Source: Dastarcus helophoroides (lineage: Eukaryota > Arthropoda > Insecta > Coleoptera > Bothrideridae). From it: a DNA stretch of 64,000 nucleotides. The stretch is taken from contig CM053330.1 of assembly GCA_028583605.1 (NCBI GenBank), forward strand, positions 27,912,598 to 27,976,597, read 5' to 3'. Numbering within the stretch: the stretch's first letter is position 1; each line of letters begins with the position of its first letter. Positions 14,287-62,790 of this stretch are shown in pieces. The position numbers were made by a program, and so were the translations under genes. The notes below the pieces were generated by a model. It had not been told where the DNA came from. It saw only the letters and a list, made by a program, of their open reading frames with translations, and did no database searches.

Positions 14287-19566
<5,280 letters not shown>

Positions 19567-29441: not shown

Positions 29442-29507
29442 TTACGACTTAAGGAGTTTGTTGGCACGCTGGTTTGCCACTGCAATTCGAGTTTCGTTGC
29501 TCTCACC
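29442..29507 (-). CDS. Snap25: SNAP-25 alternative last exon 6b (distal)
   Basis: The acceptor GTTGGTTAG precedes an exon reading [20 protein letters not shown], then S and stop (22 codons). It is phase 0, as needed after INLK. It is a full homologue of exon 6a at 30057-30119 and encodes the last turns of the second SNARE helix. This copy is nearer the usual insect sequence (IAVANQRA) than 6a. Confidence 0.85.
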   Translation of the reverse strand, partial: GESNETRIAVANQRANKLLKS

Positions 29508-32500
29508 CTAACCAACAAACATATAACCAGAGTGCCCCAATACATCGACTAACGCAGATCTGAATCGTTCCTTATCAACTTGATACTCTCCCAATTTAGT
29601 CACTTTAAATGAATCCTAACACTTACCTTAACTTGGACACCAGCCGATAAAGTGATGAGACTAGTTAAATTTTTTGACCTTCCTTGACTAAATAATTCTA
29701 CTTCTACCACCACTAAAGATATGTGTTTCGTGTATATAGAGCAAATTGCGTTACAAACTTTTTTTAATATCACATCACTTACCCCATTGTCTACCCCAAG
29801 GTTATTGTCTTTTATTGAAAGAGGTCAGTTACTAACCAGTGGGGAAGTCCTTGCAATATTAAACTAGCCCCAAATTTCATTGCGGTTGAGTAGTTCACCA
29901 ATTAGCTTCCCCCTGATCAGTAAATAATGAATCATGGAATGTACCCCCTATGAAATCAAGATTAATGCAGGAACGACTCAGAGCTACGCACAAAGTGATA
30001 CAAACATCAATAAACTGAGTAAATGATAAATAGTAGTGTTGTATGTGTTTTTGTGTCTACTTGAGAAGGTCGTGGGCTCGCTGATTTGCCACCTCTATCC
30101 TCGTAGCGTTGGACTCGCCCTGTGTTTCGGCCATGTTATTGTGAACGGACCAGTAGTGTTTGTACAATTTGTACATGTAGGTATTGTTGTTGTTGTTGTT
30201 GAGTAAACGAAGTTGCAATGTAAAACAAACAACATCGAGATTATTCAAAAATTCAAGCAGCAAATGTCATTCAGTAATCGAAATTTAAACCCCCGGAAGC
30301 CAAAAATGTCACACGTAGTCACAGAAGGCAAAACTGTCCCAACCAAATTGAGCAATTCGTTTAGAGTTCAAAGTTTTAAACTGACAGCAGTCATAAATAT
30401 GATCTAAAGGACAATCGCATTCTCTCTCTGTTGGACATTGTATTACCCCCAATTTGTTACACGAGCTAAAAGAATGCGCAATTGTTGTAACAATCCCTAG
30501 ACTGCACGCGCTTCTCAGCAAGTGAAACGGATGTGGCCGAACTATTGCGCCTTCGCGTCTTTCTAAGCCTTTCTCCCTTTCACAGCAAAATTTCTTTTAA
30601 ATTTTAATAGATTTAAACTAAACAAGCACATGTGTTCAATAAAGAATAAATTACAGAGCTGTCCATCATTTTGGGCTAGGACCTATCGCTTTACTCGAGT
30701 TACAAGTCCCCAAAACGCTTGGTAGATATTTCAGATTTTTCAATAGTCTCTCCCACTTCTGACAAATAGATTTCATATTACAGGACCACAAAATGCGTCC
30801 GCTTTAGTCAATTCTGAAGCGCAGAATCATAATTTGCCAAACAAATTGATCTATGTCATTTCTTTTCAAAATTAGAACGATCTAAAACTTCGAATATCGT
30901 AAAAGAAATCTCACTGAGGGGTACTAATGCTAAAAAATTCTGAACTTTGTATAAATATAGACAAAGGTTATCCAATTATAGGATATGCCACAGCTGATCT
31001 TCTTGGGGAGTAAAATGGATCAGAATGATCATATTTTAAAGATACTGATTTTTCACTCCTTTCAAAGTGTCGATGCCTTTCATAGCAGCCACGATTTAAG
31101 TTAAATAAACAAAGCATGTATCCAGCTTGACTAATTTTGAGTCGTTGATTTCGAATTTGCTAACCAATTTGGGTTTGAACTTATCATTAAAAGCCCAAAG
31201 ACGATTGGAAAGTATTCCTGATTTGATCAAGCCACTTTTGACAATCAGACTATACATTAAGTAATAATTGCTGTTAACATCCATTATGCGAATTTGACAT
31301 AATTCAATATTGATTCTTCAACACTGATGTTTTGTGAACACCGATCAACCCTGGTAGTTACTGCACCAGGAAGAGGGGGTTATTCTACATTCTCTTTCGA
31401 AGACATTAGCAAGGTTCTTCCCAAATTGAAAAAGGAAATGAATGTTGGTATAGGATCAATACTTTAGGATCATCGATCCAAAACTCATTAATTGAGTCAA
31501 TAGCCCAGCTCAATTAAAACGAAGAAAAAATTTTTAAGGACGAAACAGAGACCAAACGTTTATGCAATCCCAACTAAATAGACTTAGATGAAAATGTACA
31601 AAATGCTTGAATCTCGTTCATCTTATGTGTACATTTTTCGCCTTCCCAGGAGTTTGGTTCTAAGCTTTTTGAAAATAAACTGGATAATCACACTACGTGA
31701 AAAGTAAGAAACAAAACACGCAAAAATTAACTGGCATAAAATTTGACGTTGTGCTTTGAAAATATCCAATTGTGCTGATGGTTCAAAAAGCTTAATAATG
31801 AAGACTGCCTTCGACATTTTTCAAGAAACTTTCACTGAGCGATTAATACAAAATCGGGCAATCTTCATTAATCCAAAAATAAACAAATCTAATAGGCTTA
31901 AATGCAAAAAAAGTCGAACCCTATCCATTACCTTGAGATTGATGCGATCAATCTGCCTGTTTTGATTCTCCAACTCAGATCCCATGTCGATGGCCATATT
32001 CCTTAAGTTGCCGATCATAGTGTTGACTTGTCCCATGTTTTCCTCCATTTCTTCTTCCCGTGCGTCATTGGTGATCCGGCCAATGTAACCGCCTTGAGGA
32101 CCCATGCCATTCCTGTCGTCCATCATTCGTTGGGGCTGATTATTCACTACTTTGCCGTCATCGTTGCCTTTCCAAGTTCCCTCGTCCTCTTTAAACGATG
32201 AACCCCTACAGACATTTTTATCAAATTTTTTCTAAATCCAGAGATTTTAGCGACTTGTTCAGAGGATTTAAGTGGGGGTATTTTAAGAGGTAATTAACTC
32301 AACGAAGTAGCGTGCGTATCTTCCATTTAAACTATAAAGGTTGAAGCACATATGTTGCACTGTACGGGAAGGAAAGCGACGCGAACCAAATCTTCCTTTT
32401 AATTTCGTTGCATTGCCCTTCCCACAAGTGTGCGTTACCACATTAAAAATCATTGAATGTAGAATGGTAACACTACTTCGCGTCGCTTTCGTTCCCGTAC

Positions 32501-35500
32501 AGTACAATATATGTGCTGCTCTGAGGCAATTCTTATACTACGCGAAGTTGCTACATTTTCCGCGACGTTGCCACTTTGCTAACGTTGAGTTGTTTAAACA
32601 TTCAAACACATGTGTGGTTACCTGTTATTAAATTGGTGAATTTAAGTTATGAACCCTATACGTTTCGTACACAGCAGCAATAAACGAAACAGTTTCAAAA
32701 TTAAATTACTTTCTTCACTCAAGGACATTTGCACCTATGATATGGTACTAAAGCGAACTACAATAAAGAAATTCTACTAATCTATAAATCTGTCGAAAAA
32801 AAAAAACAGACATAACAAATTGCTGTCCCAAGAAACTTGATTAATTTTGTTATGTTGTCAGGCTGGGTCTGTAGTATGCTGATCACCAGAAACGGCGCTA
32901 CTTACTTTTGACAGGGTAGCACGCAAAGGCCGCAACATTTTTCCATTCCCGTGAGGTTCTTTTCTGCTTCTCGCATATCCGTGTTGATTTGGTCCATGCC
33001 ATCTTCGATCCGGTCCAGTTGTTCTAAACGAAGTCACAGAAAATTTGCACATTTCGCTCATTTCAAATCGTCGTGATCAAGAAATGGTGTAACGCTGTTT
33101 GTGTGTTAACAAACCACATGCGCATGCACTAAACTAAAAAGTTATCGAGCGTCGAAACGCGACGAATTTTCTAATTTTTTTTGTAAATTGAGAATAGCGT
33201 TGAATTCGTCGCATTTCGACGCAGTTATATGAGGATTATTCTAATGCATCTAATGTTGTAGGAAGCATCTTCATTTTGAAGTTCATGCGTTTTGTTGTTT
33301 TGTAGAAAAAGGGCATAGAGCTGGGAGAAAAGAGAATAAAGTGTAACACGATTAACGGTTATGTGAACATGTGTTAACTTACTGCCAATGTGTTACATCC
33401 TCATATATTGTAGATGTCTTTGTCTTTCAATCATGTTAGAGATTTAGAATTTATTGGAATTATAGTACAGTTCTAAATAGTATGCTCTGATTTCGTGATC
33501 ATTTTGATAGCTCTCGTTCGAAAAAGCTTAAAAAATAAAAAAAATAAAATAAATTCAAAGTTCTAAAAAAAGAATCAAAGAAGTCATTCCGTACCATACC
33601 GTCTCAGTGAAATTAGGATCAATGCTGTTCTGAAGGTAACGTGAAAGAAGCAAAAACATCAAGATAGAACAACACGCTAATTTAGTGTATTCCAGGGAAA
33701 CGAAACTCTCGTAAAAGAAACCACTTGGTAGACGAAATTTCTGCAAATGAATGCCTTTGGTGGGCGAAACTTCTACAAAAGCCCCTTGCAACCAAAATTT
33801 TGCAGAAGACTTTGGGCGGACGAAACTTCTACAGAAGTTTCCTAGTGGGCGAAATTTTTACAGAAACGTATTGGTAATCGAAGCTTCTACAGAAATCTTT
33901 CGATAAACAAACCTTCTGCAAAAGACTTTCAGCGGACAAAATTTTTGTTGCAGTTTCTTATGAGGAAAAACTTTTGCAGAAGTATCTTGGTGAAGAAAAT
34001 CCCTACAAAACGCTCTTGGTGGACAAAACTTCTGCACATGGCACTCGACAATTCTGCAGAAGTACCTTGGTGGACAAAATTATTACAGAAGGCTTTCAGT
34101 GAACAAAATTCTTACAAAAGTCTCTCGGTGAACAAAACTTCTGCAGAAGCTTTTTGGTGGACAAAATTGGTGCAGAGGATTCTCAGTGGGCAAATAAATC
34201 TTCTGCAGATGGTTCTCGATGGGCAAAACTTTTGCAGAAGTACCTTGGTGGACAAAATTCTTACAGAAGGCTCTTAGCGAACAAAACTTCTGGAGAATTC
34301 TTTTAGTGGCAATATTCTCGCAGAAGGCTCTCGGTGGATAAAACTTCTGCAGAAGCTTTTTGGTGGACAATATTCGTGCAGAAGACTCAGTGGGCAAATA
34401 AATCTTCTGCAGATGGCTCAATTCTGGCAGAAGGCTCTCAGCGGATAAAACTTCTGGAGAAGTTTCTTAGTGGACAAAATTCTTGCAGAAGGCTGTCGGT
34501 GGATAAAAGACAAAACTTCTGCAGAAGTTTCTTGATGAACAAAATTCTTGCCGAAGGTTCTCGTTGGGCAAATCTTCTGCTGAAGTTTTTTAATGCTTGG
34601 AACATTCGCCACTTGATGGGCCAAATTTTTGCAGATGCTTCTGGTTACTCAAATTTCTGCAGGAACGCATTGGTGGACAAGGATTCTTCAGAAATCTCTT
34701 GGCGATCGAAACATCGGCAGAACCGCCTTGGTCACAGAAACTGCTGCAGAAACATGCTGGTAGGAGAAACTTTTGCAAATGCCTCTGGATGCAGGAAACT
34801 TCTGCGGAAGTCTTTTGGTGGAACAAACGTAAAACACTTCGCGTTGTCCATTTCCGAAAAACGTATCTCTTGGAATGTATACCCCTATCAAGGAAACCTT
34901 CGACATAGTATTCAAACTTCCATACTAAGAAGACATTTGAATATTATGACGAAATTAATGTTAAGTAGAAATAAGCTGGATTTCGCAGCTTCTCACTTCG
35001 CTATAATATAATTTCATATTTATTTAAAAATTTGCTCGATAATACATCAATGATCTTTTCAAATTCTAAGGGTTGATTCAAATTACAACTCTTTGGCAAT
35101 AAGAGCATACTATTTAGACTTAAGAATTCTGTCGTGATACTTCTGTGTCCTAAGAATCGGGATTTGGGCGGTAATTTTCGTGAAAAAGGAGCATCGATTA
35201 TTTATAAATAGATATCTCACAGACTGCAGCAATTTACCATAGTACCATATACAACTAGATAAGCTTTTGCAGCTTATTCAACTGAGAGAATCCTTTGTTT
35301 TTCAATTTATAAAACTTGCCTTCAGTATTCCCTTTAATCGCATGATGTTGGTGTTTACGACAGAAATAATAGTGAAGTGAATAATTTATTCGAATTTATA
35401 AATAGGCCCCGAATTACTTCTTAAATTAAATAATCGATAAAACAAGAAAGGTAAAGATATCAGATGAACTCGAAACAACTCGTTTACATGGCACATCGGG

Positions 35501-38500
35501 TAATTTACCCCAATCTATAAAAATATCTAAGGATAAATACGCTTTATGACACATATTTTATGTTTATCTCTATCAAACAAAGCTAAATGACCTAAATTAC
35601 CTAAACTAAAAACGTCGGAATATATAACAGGCGGCAATGAATGCCCCTGATAATAAATGCTTGTTAAGTGCATCAAAACATAAAACGCTAAGAGTCAATG
35701 GAAGTGAACTCGCTTTAAAGACTACGTTGTTTTTACAAATTCTCTTGAATTTCCATTATTTTGCTTTGCGCTTCTAATAACTGCTTTGCGATTCTATAAT
35801 TGCTTTGCGGTGCTGTTACTCTTTCTATGATTTTGTTCAGAAATCCACGATTTTGTTCTATGTTCCCATAAATTTAATTTGCATTTTCTATGGTTTTGTT
35901 TTGGATATCTTATGATTCTATTTAGCGCTTCTATAATCATGTTTTACGCTTCTACAATGTTGTTTTGAATTTCTATGGTACTGAGATTCTAGGATTTGAA
36001 ATCGAGCTTTTGTAATTTTGTTTAGTGTCGTTTAAGAGTTGTTTTTAATTTCCATAATTTTATTCAGTTTTTAACAGCGATTTTGCTCTGTATTTTTATG
36101 ACTTTGTTCTGCACCTTTCTATGATCTTGTGTTGAGCCTCTAAGATCCTGTTTTACATTTCTACGATATCAAGATTTGAAACCGAGCTTTTGTGATTTTG
36201 TTTTGCGTTTTCTATAATTTTGCACGTTGTTTCATCAAACTGTTTCCTTTAAATATGTTTTGTTTGATAAAGATAAAAAAATATGCATCAACGATAAAAC
36301 GGGATAATTGTGCTTTGTCAGATTTAACTTTGTACGACTTCACAGCAATTGTTCACAACAAACTCCCGATTTATACAGGTTTCGTGTGCTAGTGAGTTGC
36401 TCAGGAAAAGACTGAAATTTTATTAGAAATACACACTTCCAGCAAAGATTTTTTTAATAGGATTCACTTCTATCCCTTAAGGGAGCGTTTAGATTAGACA
36501 CTTTATTCTGTACATTTCCCTCTGATATAAGTATCCATTCTCCTGAAAGAAGCTATCCGAGACGTATCTACACATCTGGGAGGAGATAGCTTCTCTCAGG
36601 ATAGTTGACACCAGAGACTGTTGACACTTACGTCAGAGAGAAATTTACGGAATAAAATGTCTAATTTAAACGCTTCCTTAGAATAATTTTTAAAATGAAT
36701 ACGAGGTTCAAATCATTAATTCGATGGTTTGGGGAAATTCTGTGGTACAAAATGACAATTTGCAAATTGATCGATATCTCTTAATGCAGAGGAAAAAGTT
36801 TAAATGTTTTCAATATCTTTTTTTGTTAGTATATATAATTGTTTCGCAAATAAATGTATTATACTTGAGATCACTACGAGTAGGGTGCGGGGATCAATAT
36901 AAACGCCGATGAATGGATACTTTAAACGTATACAAGTTGTAATCCTTGGAGAAAATTCTACTCATCAACGAATTCTGGAGTTTGAGGTTTCACAGAAAAA
37001 TGAATTCCTGTAGATAGAAAGTTTTAATTGACCTAACGCTTTTTTAACTCGGACCAAAATACAGAAAAAAATTAAGACACGTGCACTTTATCGAAAACAA
37101 GATTGAATTTCTGCGAACTGACAATGGCCTAAAAAGGAAGATACCCCCCCCCCCCGGGGTTTTAGAAATGTGATTAGAAAAAAAATTGGCAAGAAATTAA
37201 GTATTAATATGGTTACCCAATGAATATCGAATTCAAAACAATGCTGCCTTAGGGTGCATTTAGATTAGACACTATTCCGTATATTTCTCTCTGACATAGA
37301 AATATATCATGTGTAAACCGTCCTGAGGGAAGTTATCTGAGACATCACACAGCTGGGATAAATTACACGACATAAAATGCCGATACAAATTTCAGCTAGT
37401 GTCTGACATATATCGCAGAAGTTGTAGTCATCTCCTTTCTCTCGAAATATTTCATGCGAATAACTATTCTATATCATTTATAATATTGAGATACTATTCC
37501 ATATAGGTAATTTACAAATTTAATTAGACAAATTTTGATTATTTTAAGCAGCAAAGACATTTTATATCGACACTATATCAGATAGAAGGGTCAGCAATAT
37601 TCAGCTATATTTGTGTCATAGTGTAAACGGACAAGCAAATTTAGTCTCAGATACTTGAGATTTCTATCATGCAATAATTCTCTATTCTAAGCGCACCCTT
37701 AGGTATATTTTACAGTCTATTTTTAATAAGTAATATTACTCAAATAATAAAGAAAATGTTTTGAAACTTGATGTTATATTTATCTGCGCGTGATTCAAAA
37801 AATGCCATCCAAAGTTCTTTAGTTCACAAATTGACATTCACAGCGAATTCATCTTCAGTTTTAACATTTTTTTAAAATTTCGATATCACATCTGAATATT
37901 AAAATAACCACATGGCAAGACGGAAGTCTTGGGAGCTATTTAGTCGCATTTGTAATTTATTGCAGAGTTCATCGTATTAATTGATCAAACCTCGTATAAC
38001 ACCCCCTTACAGTTGGTTTCATTCGCTTGAATGAACTTTTGTAATTAAAATTCAAATATTAAAATCTTTGTTGTGTTAAGTATTAAATCTGACAAAAAGT
38101 AACTTTTCAATTCGAGTGTACTCTAAGATTTGGATATCGAGATGGTAAAAATGTAGAGGTGGTTGGATAGAATTCACATCGATATTGTTATGCTTACCGC
38201 CCTGTTCATCCAGCATGACCAGGGTTTTCATTCCCACCTCGTGGCTCTATAAACATCAAGATAATCAGCAAGGCCCACGGATAGTACAGGATCCCCCAAA
38301 GACAGAATCAATGTTCCTTAGTTAGTTGAAATAGTCGTACAGACACCTAAGTATGATTATTAAACCACAAAAAAACACCCCGTTAATGTGGTTAGAATTA
38401 CGACATTTAGAAGTTTCTAAACTTTGTGATTTTTATTGAAATTTGGACAACTTAATTACATTGCACTTAAATGTTTTTGTCGCCTGTTTTTTTAAATCTT

Positions 38501-41500
38501 GAAACCGAAACTAAGATTTGTTTTAGATTTACTTTCTTTTTAGATTCAATATCCCCGAACAAGGCAAGAAGGCACCCTTTTAAAAAATCATAGAGAACCA
38601 TCTTGCGTTGGTTGAACAAACTCGGTTTTTGGGTTTAATCCGCGTCAAATTAGTCACTTCAGTGTTCAGGACATTTGACGCACTATGCTGGTTCAATCCA
38701 GAAACCAAACTTCAATTATGACAGCCTCCACTCATTTTCTTTAAGTTATTTAAGTAGTAGGTAATACTTCAGTGAAATAGCTTAAGAAATCTGAGGATTT
38801 CAAGGAAAAAACAGGTCATTCGCTTTTCAATAAAAACCACGTGGTTAATTCGAGTAGAAACCTCCTCCATTACGATTACGAGTGGTAAGTACTCAACACC
38901 CCAAATTCGTTTCTTACCGCCTTGATGGCAGAGCATTTCCAATGTCTTTGCGCCTGCGTCATTGCTCTATAAAACGACAAATACTAGTAGCAAAAAACGG
39001 TACATCAAGCGACTAAAACACACTTAAAACATCAAACGATAAGCCAAAAAAGTCAAGACAAAATAACAAAACGAACGGCTAAATTTACGGAAGAAAGCGA
39101 AGCGAAAGTTTAATTTCGTGCAAGTGTTTTCAATGCAAGTGTTAACAACTGTAGTAGGTCATGTAAATTCAAAGTACCTTAAATATAATAATAGTAAAGA
39201 ACGAATGATGCAAAAACATGTATGTTATTTGGCCTCGAGTGCAGAATTATATTTCTTGGCAGTCTCAAACCCTGAAAACTGGAAGCCGAATATCATGAAA
39301 GCTGCAAATTAAAAAAAAATATGTGGATGAGTTTTTTTCTACGCCTTTTCCATGAATTTATGTGTATAGTTTTGCTTTAGCGTTGTTTTTCTATGCATCG
39401 GTTTTACATCTTTTTATTTCAGATAAATGTGCACCATAGCAGGCACTGAACTTCTAATTTTGCAGTGACAATAAGAACTGGTGATATTTAGACATGGTCT
39501 TGTGGCAGCGCTGTGACATTTCTTACGCTGTTCTATGTTCTAAAATTCTAACTTAAATATTTGGATTTGTGTTGTCGGTTGTTTTGAGAGCGATTCGTTT
39601 CTATTTTATGTGCGTTTCCGCTGAACACTGTTAAACTGTTAATAATGCTAATAAAAACAATATGAAAAACAATTAGTCCGATTATTTCTGTCAAACAAAC
39701 CCTGAAATATACGCAACACATTAATCATCAAAATTTTTTACGCGTGATGTCTGCGGTCCACTTTTATGCATATTTATTTGAAATGCACTATGCCTACATA
39801 TAATTAAATATTGTGATTTGTTGTCGGTCGTTTCAAGAGTGATTCTTTTATATTTTATGCCAATTTACTTTTATGCATATTGATTTGAAATTAAATATAA
39901 TTTGCTTCTTTGTGTTTCTATGGTTTGTTTTGCGTTTTCTTTATTTTGCTTTGCTTTTCCATAATTTTGTTCAACATTTCTACTTCGTTTCTCTATGATT
40001 TTGTTTAGTTTTTTTGATTTGTTTTCCGGTCCGATGCGTTTGTTTTGTGTTTCTGATTTCGTTTTGTCCTTTTAGATCACTTAAGCTGCATTCAGAACCT
40101 CTCAATTAATACATGAAATTAGTACAGGAAATTAATGGACGAGTTTGTCATATGGAAATCACCAACACCATTCATAATGCAAAATTAAAATTAATATGTG
40201 AAATTACACAGGTTTACGCGGGAGTTTGCAAACTTCAAACTTTTCGTACTAATTGGAAGTGGGAACTTGACAGATATTTTAGTTCCCTAAACTTTTAAAT
40301 TAAATAGCTTAGATATTTCTTTTTTTTTTTTTCAAGATAAATTATTATGAATATCGATAAAACATCTTTAGCACGTCTGGCGGTAGCATTAGGTGCTTAT
40401 TATTATTTAAAAAAGAAAACCAAAAATAAAATAAAGTGGTGGGTACGTGCCCATAAACCAAAAAAGACGCATGCAAGGAGATTATTACAATTTGCTTCAA
40501 GAAATGCGCCTATCTGATCCTTTAATGTTTTTTAATTATACGAGATTGTCTTATCAACAATTAAATAAAATTTCTGTGACAGGCGAGAATTACTATCAAC
40601 TCAAAATATAAAACTATAATTCTATTCACTATTTGGGTGAATTCGAACAGATAGCAGCACCATTTTAAAAAAATTAATTTCATGTTTTAATTTAGGCATT
40701 GTGAATGTTCGTTCTGATTAATTCTAATTCAAATTTGAATATCAATTGGGTCTACTAATTGTGGCGTTAATTTTGTCATTGTGAATGCAACTTTAATCTT
40801 TAAAATTTAAATTAACTGTCAAGTTGATTCGCGTGCCAATCGCTAAGCAATTTGTGTAAAAATTGAAAAAAAGATTACCACCCCCGAATTTTCATCAATT
40901 ATGGACAAGTGAAGAATAACTACGTATACATTGACATTTTCATAAGACCACCCATATTTAATTGTTAATCTTGAAATTCGTCGAACTGGTGGTCGCAGTA
41001 GTACTTGGGAGTCGATGAGGTTATGCTGTTAAACACAAAGGGTATTTCGCAGTTTTTAAACAAAAAATGCTTATGTTCAGATATTTTTTTGTTCAATATT
41101 TTTTATAAGTGGATTTTACAAAAAAATTTCCTTTTTCAATAAATTTTGCTTTGGATTCGTATTTTTGACAGGACTTTAAGACTAAAAATCTAAACATTGA
41201 ATTTGCGCCAAATATAATTCTGCATCCGATTAGGTAAATGCATGACATAATACGTCAATCATGACAAGGTGATAAAAATGGCGGAATAGTTCAAATGCTC
41301 GAGAGTAGGTAACATCGGGCATTATGAGTACAGAAAGGTTAAAAAAGGTAATGACAGTGAGGTGGGGGGGACTCACCTCCCTGGTCGTCAAGGGCGACCA
41401 AGGTGCGGATTCCAGCCTCCTTGCTCTATAGCAGCACAAAATAAGTGTAACATTGTTTGTTAGTATAGCTGTTAGTGAAAAATGCCCGACATAGATTAGT

Positions 41501-44500: not shown

Positions 44501-44814
44501 ATAAAGCCAGAAGACCCACACAGGCAAACAATTGTTAATAAATCAGCTTTTATACTTAATAACATCAGAAAAAAAATTATTTTTCACCACAGAAGACAAC
44601 GATAACACAACATGAATAATACTTTACCTCTTCGCAGAGAGCGAGCATTCGCCTGGTACTTTCCAAAGACTGTAAACAAAAATATTTAAATACACCACTC
44701 ATTTCACTTGAACCATAACCATACCTCATCTGTAACCTGTCCTGTTTTGAGTTGAAGCTCTTGCAGTTCGGTTCGAGGAGCCCCATTTTCAGCTGCTGGG
44801 GCCGGCGCTGGCAT
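29442..44814 (-). CDS. Snap25: SNAP-25 (t-SNARE), with alternative exons
   Basis: Synaptosomal-associated protein 25, the Qb+Qc SNARE that pairs with syntaxin and synaptobrevin in exocytosis at the plasma membrane. Coding exons: 44725-44814 ([20 protein letters not shown]..), 44628-44669 ([14 protein letters not shown]), one of three 49-nt exons (41377-41425, 38918-38966, 38198-38246), 32906-33023, 31932-32205, and one of two last exons (30057-30119 or 29442-29507). The length is 211 or 212 aa, as in fly SNAP-25 (212). Exon 32906-33023 has the palmitoylated linker cysteines (CCGLCVLPC). Exon 31932-32205 has [20 protein letters not shown] and most of the second SNARE helix, ending INLK. A strong acceptor sits four bases before the ATG, so a noncoding exon lies upstream. 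The introns carry MITEs, a minisatellite and a Harbinger remnant. Confidence 0.95.
29811..29816 (-). terminator. Candidate poly(A) signal for exon 6a
   Basis: AATAAA on the minus strand, about 240 bases after the exon 6a stop and before exon 6b. This placement would let 6a end its own transcript. Confidence 0.45.
30057..30119 (-). CDS. Snap25: SNAP-25 alternative last exon 6a (proximal)
   Basis: The acceptor CGAAACACAG precedes [20 protein letters not shown] and a TAG stop (21 codons, phase 0). It differs from 6b at N/E-A, A-E, N-H and K-D positions and lacks the final serine. Both keep the ANQRA..LLK core. Confidence 0.9.
   Translation of the reverse strand, partial: GESNATRIEVANQRAHDLLK
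30120..31931 (-). other. SNAP-25 last intron
   Basis: The sequence between exon 5 and exon 6a contains a short GTT microsatellite (about 30183-30201). No other gene or element recognised. Confidence 0.4.
32296..32591. mobile_element. Foldback MITE in SNAP-25 intron
   Basis: Ends AACTCAACG and CGTTGAGTT are complementary. Inside, GCACATATGTTGCACTGTAC (from about 32346), continuing GGGAAGGAAAGCGACGCGAA, pairs with the reverse complement of 32477-32516 over about 40 bp with few mismatches. It lies between coding exons 4 and 5. The open frames on both strands here are products of the foldback. Confidence 0.65.
32906..33023 (-). CDS. Snap25: SNAP-25 constitutive exon 4 (end of SN1 and Cys linker)
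   Basis: Reads (E)[19 protein letters not shown], then [19 protein letters not shown]. It starts in the phase left by any of the three 49-nt exons. The four cysteines are the palmitoylation cluster that tethers SNAP-25 to the membrane. Confidence 0.93.
33149..33222. repeat. Hairpin with GCGTCGAAACGCGACGAATT arms
   Basis: GCGTCGAAACGCGACGAATT at 33149 pairs with AATTCGTCGCATTTCGACGC at 33203-33222, with one mismatch. Probable core of a small MITE; GTTAAC/GTGTTAAC motifs on either side may mark its ends. Confidence 0.5.
33715..34830 (+). repeat. 30-bp minisatellite in SNAP-25 intron
   Basis: About 37 degenerate copies of a 27-31-bp unit with consensus near TTGGTGGACAAAACTTCTGC followed by AGAAG. 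The core CTTCTGCAGAAG is itself palindromic. Because the unit is close to 30 bases, frames stay open on both strands (for example 33945-34277, 34083-34421, 34334-35011), giving 10-residue repeats such as [10 protein letters not shown]. These are not genes. Confidence 0.85.
34831..35749. other. SNAP-25 intron, no feature seen
   Basis: AT-rich intronic sequence with no recognised exon, repeat boundary or RNA gene. Confidence 0.35.
35750..36230 (+). repeat. Minisatellite of TTTCTATGATTTTGTTTTGCG type
   Basis: Degenerate tandem units of about 20 bases with consensus near TTCTATGATTTTGTTTTGCG. The same unit recurs at 39905-40070 in the same intron region. Confidence 0.6.
36478..36680. mobile_element. 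MITE, complete copy (203 bp)
   Basis: The left end TAAGGGAGCGTTTAGATTAG and the reversed right end TAAGGAAGCGTTTAAATTAG continue matching for about 35 bp (through ACACTTTATTCTGTA). The interior has an AGAAGCTATC/GATAGCTTCT hairpin. Related copies lie at 9130-9311 and 37249-37702. Confidence 0.7.
37249..37702. mobile_element. MITE relative with TTAGGGTGC ends
   Basis: The left end TTAGGGTGCATTTAGATTAG and the reversed right end CTAAGGGTGCGCTTAGAATA are imperfect inverted repeats. The left 70 bases (ATTAGACACTATTCCGTATA, TTTCTCTCTGACATA) match the family at 36478. It is more diverged and longer. Confidence 0.5.
38198..38246 (-). CDS. Snap25: SNAP-25 alternative exon 3c
   Basis: A 49-nt exon with acceptor TTTATAG and donor GTAAGC, encoding [16 protein letters not shown] plus one base. 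Homologous to 3a and 3b and the same length. Its TLVMLDEQG end equals the vertebrate SNAP-25 sequence. Confidence 0.88.
38600..38705. repeat. Imperfect inverted repeat (GCGTCAAA type)
   Basis: CGGTTTTTGGGTTTAATCC..GCGTCAAAT and the reversed GGTTTCTGGATTGAACC..GCGTCAAAT form a loose foldback about 105 bases long. A small MITE remnant is possible. Confidence 0.35.
38918..38966 (-). CDS. Snap25: SNAP-25 alternative exon 3b (most divergent)
   Basis: A 49-nt exon with acceptor TTTATAG and donor GTAAGA, encoding [16 protein letters not shown] plus one base. It keeps the zero-layer glutamine and the AG, TL and L positions. The pair of acidic residues before the glutamine (DD or DE in the others) is replaced by Cys-His, and Val by Glu. 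Confidence 0.85.
39560..39895 (+). repeat. Direct duplication in SNAP-25 intron
   Basis: TTGTCGGTTGTTTTGAGAGCGATTC near 39573 recurs as TTGTCGGTCGTTTCAAGAGTGATTC near 39822, and ACTTTTATGCATATTTATTTGAAAT near 39760 recurs near 39868. An old tandem duplication of roughly 250 and 110 bases respectively. Confidence 0.5.
39905..40070 (+). repeat. Second array of the TTTCTATGATTTTGTTTTGCG minisatellite
   Basis: Units such as TTTCTATGGTTTGTTTTGCG and TTCTCTATGATTTTGTTTAG match the 35750-36230 array. The two lie 3.7 kb apart in the same intron cluster. Confidence 0.5.
40086..40793 (+). mobile_element. PIF/Harbinger-like remnant with transposase N-terminus
   Basis: Ends GCTGCATTCAGAACC and (reversed) GTTGCATTCACAATG are similar. 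Within it, from the ATG at 40347, the frame reads [20 protein letters not shown] then [12 protein letters not shown] shifted frame continues [20 protein letters not shown] then YTRLSYQQL. This matches the start of Harbinger/HARBI1-type transposases (WWVHPW, LL.EL...D...F.NFLRM). The rest of the transposase is missing and a stop interrupts it. Confidence 0.55.
41377..41425 (-). CDS. Snap25: SNAP-25 alternative exon 3a (canonical insect form)
   Basis: A 49-nt exon with acceptor CTATAG and donor GTGAGT, encoding [16 protein letters not shown] plus one base. Identical to the fly SNAP-25 segment as I know it. It is nearest the 5' exons. Confidence 0.92.
41770..41995 (+). repeat. Three-copy tandem repeat, ~75-80 bp unit
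   Basis: Each copy contains TAACTGTTTA..GTCCAGGTGGC or a variant, then TATGGTACCGCCATCTAGAC and TACAGGTTACTACT. GATGGCGGTA and TACCGCCATC within a unit are complementary, so each unit can form a hairpin. It lies just upstream of exon 3a in transcription order. Confidence 0.65.
42001..44627 (-). other. SNAP-25 intron between exons 2 and 3a
   Basis: Mostly unique. A GC-richer island around 42860-43100 (CGACGGCGTACGTATG, GTGTGTGTGTATGTGCG) stands out and could be regulatory or a repeat fragment. GGCGCCACTG at 43595-43604 resembles a hAT-like right end but no partner was found. Confidence 0.3.
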
Positions 44815-49113: not shown

Positions 49114-50421
49114 TTATCTAATTGTAACAAACAATTGTTTCCTTGCTTCATTTTCTATTTCTTTGTGTATCACATTAACCTCACTCTGCTTTAAAGTTCT
49201 TTCCATATGTCTATAAGTTATTCTGTAACAATGACTCACATTCCCAGTTTTTGGGTGTGTAAAATTATCAATTAGATCAACTTGTTCCACAAAATCCCCC
49301 CCAATGGTCCGCACCAAATCATAGAAATCATTACTTGTGAATGCTCTATCATTTGGAAGCCAAAAACTTATGTCATTTTTACACTGCGGAAACTGACTTA
49401 TTGGCTTATAAATAACATTAGCATCAGGGTTTTCCACTTTGAACTGATTAAGAAACCCAGAATCCGTTGACCAGAACAATCTGATATCGGGAATTTTGTA
49501 CAGACACATTGCAATTCGCTCCAAACCTAAACCAAAGGCCCAACCGATTCTATCAGTAATGCCAGCGTTGGTTATAATTGGTTGCTTCATTATCCCACAT
49601 CCTAACAATTCCATCCAATCGCCCTCATGGAAAACTTCCAGCTCCCACGATGGTTGAGTAAATGGAAATTGTGAATCCACCCATCGATATTTCACATCAC
49701 CACCAAAAAGATTCCTAGCTAACCCCTCCAACGTTTTTTTCAGTTCATGCTCCATAACTTTTACTGCTTCCAGCGTATGGCAAGCTTGTTTGTCTTGTGA
49801 GCCGATATTTTCAGTGCAAGCGCCCCCCTCGAATAACTGCAAGTCTTCATCATTGGGGAATAAATCTTGTTTAGTCCGCAACCTCACAGCGTCCACCTGA
49901 TGAAAAACTGGGTAATGAGTGCTATCTATCTCATCCCGTCGATAAACGTCCCCAACCATTAAAAAGCAGTTGAGTCCTGACCTCATTAACTCCGATTGGT
50001 GGGCAGTCATGTGCGCCCTTAATAAATATTCTCGATTAAGATAGTAGCAGTCGCTTTTGGCCCTCGAAACGTGGTCTTTAGGTATGAGTAGACTGTCGAA
50101 GTTTTGTTCAATGGTGACAATGGGGGCTAAGTTGTCGTACATGGAAAACGCAGGGCTTCTGCATTTCGGAAATTCCTTATAGAAGTAGTCCCGAATCCTG
50201 AGTTTTACCAAGTTTAAGGGATGATAGGGTTGCAGGTGCAAATTGCGGCCAATGTGAGACAATATTTTTTCAGTAACGTTTGTGTATTCGTCTTTTATGT
50301 AATTCGTGTTGTGCAAGGTTATGTCATTCTTTATGTTCGGTTTTGTGGAATAATTGGACACTACCTGGATTTGTAAAAGGGCGGTACACTTCTGATTAAT
50401 TAAACGTCGAAGACAAATCAT
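49114..50421 (-). CDS. FARS2: Mitochondrial phenylalanyl-tRNA synthetase
   Basis: Charges tRNA-Phe with phenylalanine in mitochondria; single-chain class II synthetase (fly PheRS-m). 435 aa in one open exon. The basic, hydroxylated N-terminus (MICLRRLINQKCTALLQIQV) fits a mitochondrial targeting peptide. Motif 2 is near 156-181 (VGDVYRRDEIDSTHYPVFHQ then VDAVRL), motif 3 at 293-305 (GWAFGLGLERIAM), and PSWELEVF and ELLGCG lie in the catalytic core. The C-terminal ferredoxin-fold anticodon-binding domain (about 339-435) contains YKPISQFPQ and ends KQLFVTIR. The length matches the family (human 451). There are no introns and no damage. The start is the first ATG, in front of the targeting peptide. 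Confidence 0.96.
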   Translation of the reverse strand: MICLRRLINQKCTALLQIQVVSNYSTKPNIKNDITLHNTNYIKDEYTNVTEKILSHIGRNLHLQPYHPLNLVKLRIRDYFYKEFPKCRSPAFSMYDNLAPIVTIEQNFDSLLIPKDHVSRAKSDCYYLNREYLLRAHMTAHQSELMRSGLNCFLMVGDVYRRDEIDSTHYPVFHQVDAVRLRTKQDLFPNDEDLQLFEGGACTENIGSQDKQACHTLEAVKVMEHELKKTLEGLARNLFGGDVKYRWVDSQFPFTQPSWELEVFHEGDWMELLGCGIMKQPIITNAGITDRIGWAFGLGLERIAMCLYKIPDIRLFWSTDSGFLNQFKVENPDANVIYKPISQFPQCKNDISFWLPNDRAFTSNDFYDLVRTIGGDFVEQVDLIDNFTHPKTGNVSHCYRITYRHMERTLKQSEVNVIHKEIENEARKQLFVTIR

Positions 50422-51277: not shown

Positions 51278-52551
51278 CGAGGGCGGTTCAATAAGTACCC
51301 GTGTTAGAAATGAAGAGACCATTTTTTTCAAAAATATGTTTTTTAATTTTCAACATAGTCCCTTTTTAGAAAGATACACTTCTCCCAACGTTCCGGCCAT
51401 TTTTTTAACCCCTCCAAAAAATAGGATTTGTCGAACTCCAAAATACGCCTCTGTCTCGGCGATGACTTCCTCGTTTGAGCTAAATTTTTTCCCGCTTCTT
51501 CATGTTGGGGAACAAGAAAAAGTCGCAGGGAGCCAGATCGGGTGAATACGGGGGATGCGGCAGCGATTCATAACGCAATTCATGCAGTTTGGCAACACCA
51601 CATGAATGTGCTGGTGCGTTATCGTGATGAAACAACACCTTTTTTTTCGCCAAATGCGTGTCTCCTTTAATTTTTTGTCGAAGTGGTCCAATAACTCACT
51701 GTAGTATTGTCCAGTGATCGTTCTTCCTTTTTCTAACAAATCTATGAGGATGACGCCCTTCGCATCCCAAAAAATCGTCGCCATGACCTTACCGGCCGAT
51801 GAGGCCGTCTTCGTCTTCTTTGGTGCAGATTCACCGGGAGAAATCCATTGTTTTGATGGTTGCTTAGTTTCTGGTGTGTAATGATGAATCCAGGTTTCAT
51901 CAACGGTGACAACTCGACGCAAAAAGTCCTTCGGATCTCGCTTATATTGCCCCAAACACTGCTTCGAAGTTAACAGCCGCATCCGCTTGTTGTCCAGCGT
52001 GAGCAATCGCGGCACCCATCGGGCCGACAACTTTTTCATCGCCAACTTATCATGTATTTTATTAATTGCCGTTCCGGTCGACACCCCTACGGCCTTTGCT
52101 ACTTCGCGCACTTTCGTTCGTCGATCATTGAGAATCATGTCGTTGACTTTTTCAATGATTTCCTCGGTAACCACGTCTGCCGGGCGTCCTGGTCGGTCCT
52201 CATCAAAAACGGATGTTCGCCCACATTTAAATCCGTTGAACCAATATCTAACTGTGGTCATAGATGGCGATGTATCCCCATAAACAGCATCCAACTTTGC
52301 TTTTATCTCCTCGCATTTTTTCCCATCCAAAAACAAAAAGTGAATTACCGAACGATACTGTTCTTTTTCCATCTTAGCGAAAATCACGAAACACGTCTGA
52401 CTCGGATGACTGCCAAATCGAAACTAACCTAACAATCAGTCTGAAATTTGTATCAGCGTCGTCTGATAGATGGCAGCACACGATGATAATACTAACTTTA
52501 CTCAGGAACGTCCTCTGTCTTCAAACACGGGTACTTAATGAACCGCCCTCG
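51278..52551 (-). mobile_element. mariner element, 1274 bp
   Basis: Terminal inverted repeats of about 27 bp: CGAGGGCGGTTCAATAAGTA at the left; the reversed right end is CGAGGGCGGTTCATTAAGTA, continuing CCCGTGTT. They are flanked by TA at 51276-51277 and 52552-52553. Size and ends are typical of mariner. The transposase within is frameshifted. Confidence 0.92.
51340..52372 (-). pseudogene. mariner transposase, frameshifted
   Basis: Starts MEKEQYRSVIHFLFLDGKKC with an N-terminal helix-turn-helix. The conserved linker ARWVPRLLT and first catalytic Asp (TVDETWIHHY) are present. Open to about residue 240, then a one-base deletion near 51655 shifts the frame. In the other frame HHDNAPAHS (second Asp) and YSPDLAPCDFFLF (third Asp) follow, consistent with DD34D. 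A further frameshift occurs before the end. The longer upstream ATG at 52387 is possible, but MEKEQ fits the family. Confidence 0.88.
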
Positions 52552-61199: not shown

Positions 61200-61565
61200 A
61201 AGTTCATTCGTCTCTCGTCACACCCTTGACCTTGCCTCTGCGCCATCTCTTTCGCGTCTTGTGACCCACATTCGGCGGCGCGGCGTGCGAAATAAGCATC
61301 GCAGAGATAAGAGGCCTCGGTGAAGATGGCGCCAGGTGAGGAGCACCGTCGATAGGCGCATTTATGTGTGTCACGGACGCCGCGACGACAACGACGCAGG
61401 GCATTGTGGGAGTCTACCGACGGCGACCGATGCCGATGCGCGTACTGTAGCGAGAGCGACCTCCATGGCTGTCAATGGTCGGTGCGAGTGCGAGGAGACA
61501 CGCTCGTCCCACAGCCCTATGTAGCTGTTGTACATCGCGAGTGAGTGTTTTGTGTGTGTGGTGCC
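61200..61565 (+). promoter_or_regulatory. CpG-rich 5' region of the PKC gene
   Basis: A sharp rise in CG content directly before the PKC start, with GAAGATGGCGCCAG (a YY1-like AAGATGGCG) at 61322 and several short upstream ATGs. A promoter plus 5' UTR is likely. No TATA box was identified. The frame at 61336-61524 looks like chance CpG-rich coding. Confidence 0.45.
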
Positions 61566-61913
61566 ATGTTTACGGGCTGCCTCAAGCTGAAACTATGCGA
61601 GGCCCAGGGCTTAAGGCCGACCGACTGCTCTAAGCGTCTCAACATGGCGTTCGGGAAGGCAGACGAACAGCAGCTGATGGACCCCTACGTTACGATAGAC
61701 GTGGACGACATGCACATCGCCCAATCGACCACTAAGCCCAAAACGTTGGACCCCGTGTGGAACGAGGTCTTCGAGCATCAGCTACACAACGCCAAGACCC
61801 TCACCTTAACAGTTTTCCATGACGCCGCCATTCCTCCAGACGTTTTCGTAGCTAACTGCAGTCTTCACTTCGAGGATCTTCTTACTCGAGAAACCGACGA
61901 CTGCGATTTCTGG
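61566..61913 (+). CDS. Novel-type protein kinase C, first coding exon (C2 domain), partial
   Basis: The first 116 residues of a novel protein kinase C, epsilon/eta type (fly Pkc98E): a diacylglycerol-activated Ser/Thr kinase. The exon is the amino-terminal C2 domain. It opens MFTGCLKLKLCEAQGLRPTD, then DPYVTIDVDD, KPKTLDPVWNEVFEH, LTVFHDAAIPPDVFVANC, and ends DDCDFW at a donor GG/GTAATG (intron from 61914). In the family DFW is followed by V, which fits a phase-0 junction. I prefer the ATG at 61566 (GTGCCATGTTT, family start MFTG) over the upstream in-frame ATG at 61545. C1 and kinase domains lie beyond the window. This class of C2 lacks a full calcium-binding Asp set. Confidence 0.9.
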
Positions 61914-62790
61914 GTAATGACAGTTTATGCATCGCGTCTATTGCACCTGGCGCGTTCTTTCCGATTAAATATTCACCGACCTTGTTTATATTTCACGACA
62001 CTTTAAAATCAAATGATATATAAATAAAGGAAATTAAACAAATTTAACACGGGATTTCGTTTCGAAGCTTTAAGAAGTTTTATAAATTTTAGAGGTCATG
62101 GAAGATGTCACCAAATTGAATATGCAAATGGACAGAGTTGAATGAAATTTAAAGTAAAAATAAAAAAGCAATTCGGCAACCTTCATGGAAAATACCAAGA
62201 ATTTGTCCGGTTAATCGCAGATATCTCTTTTCGATGTTAATGAAATATTTTAATTTTGTGCCTCGTCTACAATAATATTTGTTATCTTAAACGTTACAAC
62301 TTCGGAATCCGTACAACTCTGCTGAAAACAATTTAAAAGTAATAGATCGTGATAGTTCCATTTAAAATTTTAAACAGTAATGCGTCCCAGTTAATATTTA
62401 TGAAGGTTACACAGTCAAATTATCCAATGAAAAACTAGCAGAAATCATAATACGTAACATACGTTATCGTGAAGACCAGACTAATAAATTGGCGAAGCAT
62501 CTTAATCAAACTTATGAAGCTTAATCAAGGAACATTCATAAACATTACGTTTAAAATAACATTGATTGGAAAGGTACAAGAAATTTACATACGTACATAA
62601 TAATTATTAAAATTAAAACGTTTAACTATCTACTTATTGAAGGTATACCATGTACCAAAAAAGATCATCCTTAAAATTGTTGTCAAATGTTCTGATGATT
62701 TATTATTTTTTGATTGCTTGATTTGAACGAATGGCCAACAATTTCCTTCACATCTACAAGAAATTGCAAACAAATATTTTAAAAATGTAA
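61914..62790 (+). other. Start of PKC intron 1
   Basis: Intronic AT-rich sequence with no recognised exon or element. Confidence 0.4.

Follow-up and report, generated by a model that had tools for sequence, protein, structure and literature searches.

The 64,000-nucleotide stretch analysed here (the window) comes from the beetle Dastarcus helophoroides (contig CM053330.1, positions 27,912,598 to 27,976,597) and carries a Snap25 gene on its minus strand, in which coding exon 3 is present as three tandem copies, 3a, 3b and 3c. The product was recognized as SNAP-25, a Qb,Qc-SNARE central to the machinery of neurotransmitter release, from its two SNARE motifs, its cysteine-containing linker and its full-length match to SNAP-25. 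Splicing of the three-exon cluster is almost certainly real. In the best explanation a single copy would be used per mRNA, other tested outcomes being rejected by the frame, and the cluster would tune how SNAREs couple to synaptotagmin-1 (Syt1), the calcium sensor; this explanation as a whole, in which the coupling part weighs most, is slightly favoured.

The three copies share their length (49 nt), phase, TATAG/AGC acceptor and GT donor, and the coordinates, lengths, peptides, acceptors and donors listed in a preliminary description of this DNA were all confirmed on the sequence. Each copy joins exons 2 and 4 in frame. When exon 3 was skipped, or when two copies were joined (ab, bc, ac and ba), a frameshift and stops resulted, just as the preliminary description had claimed for skipping and double use, while joining all three (147 nt) kept the register but introduced internal stops. 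The window contains 54 open AG-49-GT stretches on the minus strand and 53 on the plus strand; scored against the 3a peptide, 3a itself reached 77, 3c 52, 3b 34 and the next best stretch 1. When the intron region was dinucleotide-shuffled 400 times, no score exceeded 21, which is below those of 3c and 3b. The frame and the homology of the cluster are well supported. Pairwise DNA identities of 26/49 (a/b), 33/49 (a/c) and 28/49 (b/c) suggest that the copies are old duplicates, and the next exon, exon 4, had a single match in the window. The donor of 3a is the closest of the three to the consensus, which suggests that 3a may be the default choice.

By alignment, the exon-3 block corresponds to SNAP-25 residues 39-54. 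When the window's protein is aligned with a PDB SNAP-25 chain, its position n falls on n-3 of the chain before the linker gap, and since this chain was read as having three residues before the native start, the native number is n-6. The glutamine that had been equated with Q53 is indeed its counterpart, as Q59 of the window's protein becomes Q53 in native numbering.

Exon-3 versions in related species

Three protein searches gave 1390, 1590 and 1694 matches, and the best 120 of each were pooled into 267 distinct proteins (the fetched set), among which 273 exon-3 stretches were located by a script. These stretches were classified by residues 39-43 only. Class a (K40 with E or D41) comprised 136 stretches with 16 peptides and class c (SHEVG, SHQVG, SAEVG, STEVG or STETG) 28 stretches with 7 peptides, while class b, defined as everything not a or c, comprised 109 stretches with 77 peptides. 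The best database match of the 3b isoform over residues 29-74 was from Aethina tumida (96%), and the named matches down to rank 7 were all from beetles. The 3c peptide of the window was found letter for letter in 15 of the 267 fetched proteins, its named carriers being beetles, bees, a wasp, a cricket, a stick insect, butterflies and a moth. Drosophila species have a plus a c-like form (SAEVGMRSIVMLDEQG; P0137, P0161, P0163), with at least two exon-3 versions on record for D. yakuba (P0137, P0198). Some gastropods and crustaceans have two recorded versions; of the crustaceans, Cherax and Procambarus have a and b, and no class c was seen in this group among the fetched proteins.

Sixteen hand-picked same-species groups were compared, one of which set a protein against itself and was uninformative. 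Pairs differing solely inside the 16-residue block were found in eight species, namely five insects (Bacillus rossius and Copidosoma floridanum, each a/b and a/c; Cloeon dipterum, a/c; Planococcus citri and Cotesia typhae, b/c) and three gastropods (Pomacea, Babylonia and Physella, the last with all seven differences within block 41-56). Differences beyond the block were present in the Cloeon a/b pair (four), in the Anoplophora and Cherax pairs (the last exon differs too), in the Procambarus pair (one extra residue) and, widely, in the D. yakuba and Aedes pairs (odd ends and a short gene model). Exon 3 was identical within the Dreissena and Biomphalaria pairs. Comparison with related insects had been proposed in the preliminary description, and isoforms of all three versions are on record in the stick insect, the parasitic wasp and the mayfly. 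These isoforms support its view that the zero layer is covered by three mutually exclusive exons, at a site other than that of vertebrate 5a/5b. The exon-3 cluster of the beetle gene would thus be mutually exclusive, judging from annotated isoforms of relatives that show each version. If the cluster is one by descent, it would date to the root of the winged insects or earlier.

Full-length proteins were also found on short contigs, with 3b in P0003 (980 nt), 3a in P0102 (1102 nt) and 3c in P0132 (2618 nt). Because the coding exons of the window's Snap25 span about 15 kb, contigs of 980-2618 nt fit spliced RNA, which is the natural reading, a retrocopy being the alternative. Proteins such as P0009, P0012 and P0017 have a UniRef source only and no contig, as for transcriptome entries. 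Six public gene models string two exon-3 versions together, apparently as prediction errors that deserve correction: a then b in Cotesia congregata P0019, Cloeon P0039 and P0264 (TCALIF, read as the copepod Tigriopus), a then c in Exocentrus P0051 and Aphis P0100, and b then c in Choristoneura P0008. The exon order in all six agrees with the a-b-c of the window.

As to origin only, it is nearly an even matter that the gastropod and arthropod clusters arose by separate, repeated duplications of one exon rather than in one protostome ancestor. Three mollusc b peptides share on average 8.4/16 residues with ten arthropod b peptides and 10/16 with mollusc a, which speaks for separate origins, whereas the use of the same block, its pairing with a conserved a (13/16 between phyla) and the Q40-D41 common to b forms of crustaceans, some insects and molluscs speak against them. 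Sixteen residues are too few to decide the origin. The candidate view that mollusc and arthropod b exons are demonstrably one lineage was rejected as unsupported by the peptide identities.

Inward residues and the synaptotagmin-1 interface

Q53 is taken here to be the zero-layer residue (layer 0). From it the inward positions 39, 43, 46, 50 and 53 were set by 3-4 spacing, with I67 as layer +4 (PMC10911398). The preliminary description had expected exon choice to alter the layers around the ionic centre, which is not supported for this gene: S39, G43, T46, L50 and Q53 are identical in 3a, 3b and 3c. All five are retained in 14/16 a, 62/77 b and 4/7 c peptides of the fetched set; the departing c peptides have S instead of T46, and 15 of the 77 b peptides, all from other species, have at least one of the five altered. 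The differences among the window's exons lie at outward positions of the first SNARE helix, with K40, I44, V48, D51 and D52 in 3a, N40, A44, E48, C51 and H52 in 3b, and H40, M44, V48, D51 and E52 in 3c.

Several of these positions belong to a known contact. It has been reported that K40, D51, E52, E55, Q56 and D166 of SNAP-25 are at the primary interface with synaptotagmin-1 (PMC8967716), and the combination K40A/D51A/E52A/E55A/D166A has been used for disrupting it (PMC9811660). With D51A/E52A/E55A, C2B binding was weakened while assembly was normal (PMC4878868). V48 is in the hydrophobic patch of the interface, and V48F and D166Y lead to more spontaneous and less synchronous release, with a gain-of-function component in addition to lost binding (PMC10911398). 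In the window's gene, E55, Q56 and D166 are retained and encoded in constant exons. Exon 3b departs at all four variable interface positions (40, 48, 51 and 52), while 3a and 3c retain V48 and two acids.

Whether this is a feature of the class was examined among the relatives. The named arthropod b set consists of 59 proteins with 48 distinct peptides, of which one has both acids at 51/52, 20 have one and 27 none; H52 occurs in 33, V48 in three and K or R at 40 in one. The only peptide of this set with both acids, from centipede P0156 (SREVGIQTLVMLDEQG), also has R40 and V48 and is b merely by the rule. By comparison, both acids and V48 are present in 7/7 c peptides, and among a peptides both acids are present in 13/16 and V48 in 15/16. 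Loss of the acid pair is a trait of the listed insect and crustacean b entries.

The partner side was examined in the same genome. Synaptotagmin-1 was found on contig C2 in three pieces at 100%, 91% and 66% identity, and it retains all five partner residues (R281, E295, Y338, R398 and R399). From the 25 matches listed, three further C2B-like loci were looked at, and they do not retain this set in their aligned parts. Since the partner residues are retained in Syt1, the docking patch is expected to be functional with 3a and 3c, and its rewriting in 3b would be meaningful.

In the proposed mechanism, 3a and 3c would give SNARE complexes with the usual docking patch for Syt1 C2B (V48 and acids at 51/52), while the complex with 3b would zipper normally and have weak binding to synaptotagmin-1. 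A cell switching to 3b would accordingly move away from tightly calcium-triggered release, toward release that is spontaneous, constitutive or governed by another sensor. A weakening of the synaptotagmin-1 contact by 3b is plausible, and we give this step a little less than even weight.

Several points weigh against this mechanism. Both acids are retained in 9 of all 77 b peptides, those named being from molluscs, a brachiopod (Lingula) and the centipede, so not all second exons have lost the acid pair; moreover, the b list was retrieved using the window's 3b, which favours look-alikes. The D51A/E52A/E55A complex was less resistant to SDS, so stability was possibly affected as well (PMC4878868). 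SNAP-23 differs from SNAP-25 near the interface by K40Q, L47I and V48T, and airway SNAP-23 still serves calcium-triggered fusion with synaptotagmin-2 (PMC8967716); because SNAP-23 works despite these changes, substitutions at 40 and 48 by themselves need not abolish coupling, and the case for coupling rests mostly on positions 51 and 52. Exon 3b is also altered at positions without known synaptotagmin contact, and its target may be another partner. Finally, 3c lacks K40 though V48, D51 and E52 are kept, so the cluster is no simple on/off switch.

Gene structure, introns and neighbourhood

The gene also has two alternative last coding exons (Table 1). Together with the three exon-3 versions it could therefore encode 3 x 2 proteins, and all six pairings of an exon-3 version with a last exon yield a SNAP-25 of 211 or 212 residues. 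Isoforms with differing ends were also found in Anoplophora, Photinus, Polypedilum, Cherax and Pomacea.

Table 1. Coding exons of Snap25 in the window
Feature	Coordinates	Strand	Details	Basis
Exon 1	44725..44814	-	coding; starts at ATG	sequence
Exon 2	44628..44669	-	42 nt; donor GTAAAG; shared 5' partner of 3a/3b/3c	
Exon 3a	41377..41425	-	49 nt; peptide SKEAGIRTLVALDDQG; donor GAG/GTGAGT	
Exon 3b	38918..38966	-	49 nt; peptide SNDAGAKTLEMLCHQG; donor GCG/GTAAGA	
Exon 3c	38198..38246	-	49 nt; peptide SHEVGMKTLVMLDEQG; donor GCG/GTAAGC	
Exon 4	32906..33023	-	118 nt; shared 3' partner; carries E55 (split codon) and Q56	
Exon 5	31932..32205	-	274 nt; carries D166 equivalent	
Exon 6a	30057..30119	-	alternative last coding exon; GESNATRIEVANQRAHDLLK and stop	
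Exon 6b	29442..29507	-	alternative last coding exon; GESNETRIAVANQRANKLLKS and stop	

Several ways of enforcing the use of one copy were considered. Steric block was set aside, since the introns between the exon-3 copies (2410 and 671 nt) are not short, and so was a U2/U12 mismatch, the sites being plain GT-AG sites as read by eye. Complementary stems of at least 13 pairs were computed, and the best 25 were considered. The competing intronic RNA pairing that the preliminary description had suggested looking for did not stand out above shuffles: for a dock/selector model, with one docking site and selectors near all three exons, 9/40 and 26/40 shuffles were as good or better, a comparison that has little power with one genome. 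Rfam at the gathering threshold gave 0 matches in the window. What is left after these tests is frame-based rejection plus regulators of another sort.

Some features of the introns were recorded on their own account. A 15-nt stretch of intron 2 (44308-44294) is complementary to part of exon 3b (38946-38932), which could mask the exon or be chance. In the same intron, about 350 nt 5' of exon 3a, a tandem 73-nt unit with an internal complement (GTCTAGATGGCGGTA / TACCGCCATCTGGAC) occupies 41990-41776; a 90-base query from this array had three matches in the genome, all at this spot. The intron between 3c and exon 4 contains arrays of a ~29-nt unit (33967-34585) with palindromic TTCTGCAGAAG cores and several self-complementary stems.

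In the neighbourhood, an open frame with tRNA-synt_2d and FDX-ACB domains lies at 49114-50421 (-), about 4.3 kb upstream of Snap25 coding exon 1, and was taken to be a mitochondrial-type phenylalanyl-tRNA synthetase. A mariner-type transposase frame with Mos1-type HTH and partial DDE domains is located at 51500-52387 (-), a C2-domain frame at 61545-62006 (+) and a DEAD-helicase piece at 15110-15487 (-).

Alternative readings and biological meaning

One alternative is that exon choice replaces a missing SNAP-23, with 3b (or 3c) forming a non-neuronal SNAP-25 for ordinary secretion that differs chiefly in its preference for other partners or membranes; we regard this as unlikely. In its favour, the search of the genome turned up, besides the single Snap25 locus, just one distant open frame (24% identity), which lies on another contig and was read as SNAP-29. 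Its protein has an NPF near the start, as does SNAP-29. No SNAP-23/24-type paralogue was found in an exon-by-exon genome search that scored best candidates only, so absence is unproved, which tells against the replacement. SNAP-23 retains D51/E52, and this too tells against it, because in b exons from insects and crustaceans at least one of the two acids is lost. The accessible part of PMC8967716 names no difference between SNAP-23 and SNAP-25 at 51/52, while the three changes near the interface that it does name agree with the replacement, the b exons having mostly Q or E at 40.

A second alternative, which we consider improbable, is that the versions do not differ in function and that the cluster is there to regulate the gene, for instance by turning it off through a frameshift followed by decay whenever no copy, or two, had been joined. 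The wrong exon combinations tested do run into stops, as such a switch would have it. Nevertheless, a single exon would suffice as an off switch, the 3c peptide is identical across several insect orders, and the class signatures are retained; since an equivalent spare needs no fixed residues of its own, the versions are unlikely to be equivalent. That 3b and 3c are decayed, unused duplicates is extremely improbable: C51 of 3b does occur in none of the 77 fetched b peptides, but the frame, splice sites and length are intact, the scores are far beyond shuffles, the class signatures are conserved and relatives have same-species isoforms.

The preferred reading, a cluster that would tune coupling to synaptotagmin-1, can be compared with known systems. 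Vertebrate exon 5a/5b covers about residues 56-94, the segment after the zero layer, whereas the insect cluster has three copies over residues 39-54. Both are mutually exclusive tandem exons of the same gene, and 5a/5b has been dated to early bony fish and reported as absent in the fly (PMC2581893). The Dscam and muscle myosin clusters likewise consist of tandem homologous exons, one per mRNA (PMC5740500); unlike them, the window's cluster is small, is in a SNARE gene and gave no detected docking/selector pairing. Vertebrate SNAP-25 and SNAP-23 are similarly two proteins differing near the interface at 40, 47 and 48 (PMC8967716), but they come from two genes, whereas the insect versions are exons of one gene. 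The SNAP25 encephalopathy changes V48F and D166Y (PMC10911398) affect the same synaptotagmin-1 interface as 3b; those are disease mutations, whereas 3b brings several interface changes (N40, E48, C51, H52) in an apparently normal exon.

The preliminary description also knew of no earlier account of the arrangement. That stands for the papers that could be searched, but public databases already contain such versions under plain names ('isoform X1' to 'X6') for a number of insects and molluscs, so that they are deposited as isoforms and, as far as the searchable literature goes, not in print. No description of an insect or mollusc SNAP-25 exon cluster was found in the literature searched (titles and abstract starts), though a 2013 fly catalogue (10.1038/ncomms3460) may list Drosophila Snap25. 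A human survey mentions SNAP-25 once in its accessible part, citing the 5a/5b work (PMC5740500), exon choice is unmentioned in the accessible part of a paper on bee Snap-25 methylation (PMC5717273), and SNAP-25 is unmentioned in the main text of PMC3228551 and in PMC3923563. What would be new here are the position of these mutually exclusive SNAP-25 exons and their likely target.

Few synaptic proteins have been studied as much as SNAP-25, whose Syt1 interface is known mainly through structures and designed and disease mutations. To our knowledge, fly work commonly takes Snap25 as one protein. An exon that rewrites positions 40, 44, 48, 51 and 52 while sparing the core would be a ready-made natural tool, by which it would become testable whether splicing regulates the contact between SNAREs and synaptotagmin apart from zippering. 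We tentatively propose that in winged insects an old splice switch in one SNAP-25 gene may exchange the outer face of a SNARE helix that is otherwise left as it is, and may in this way set whether fusion machines dock the fast calcium sensor synaptotagmin-1, in which case exon duplication would do the job that vertebrates give to separate genes.

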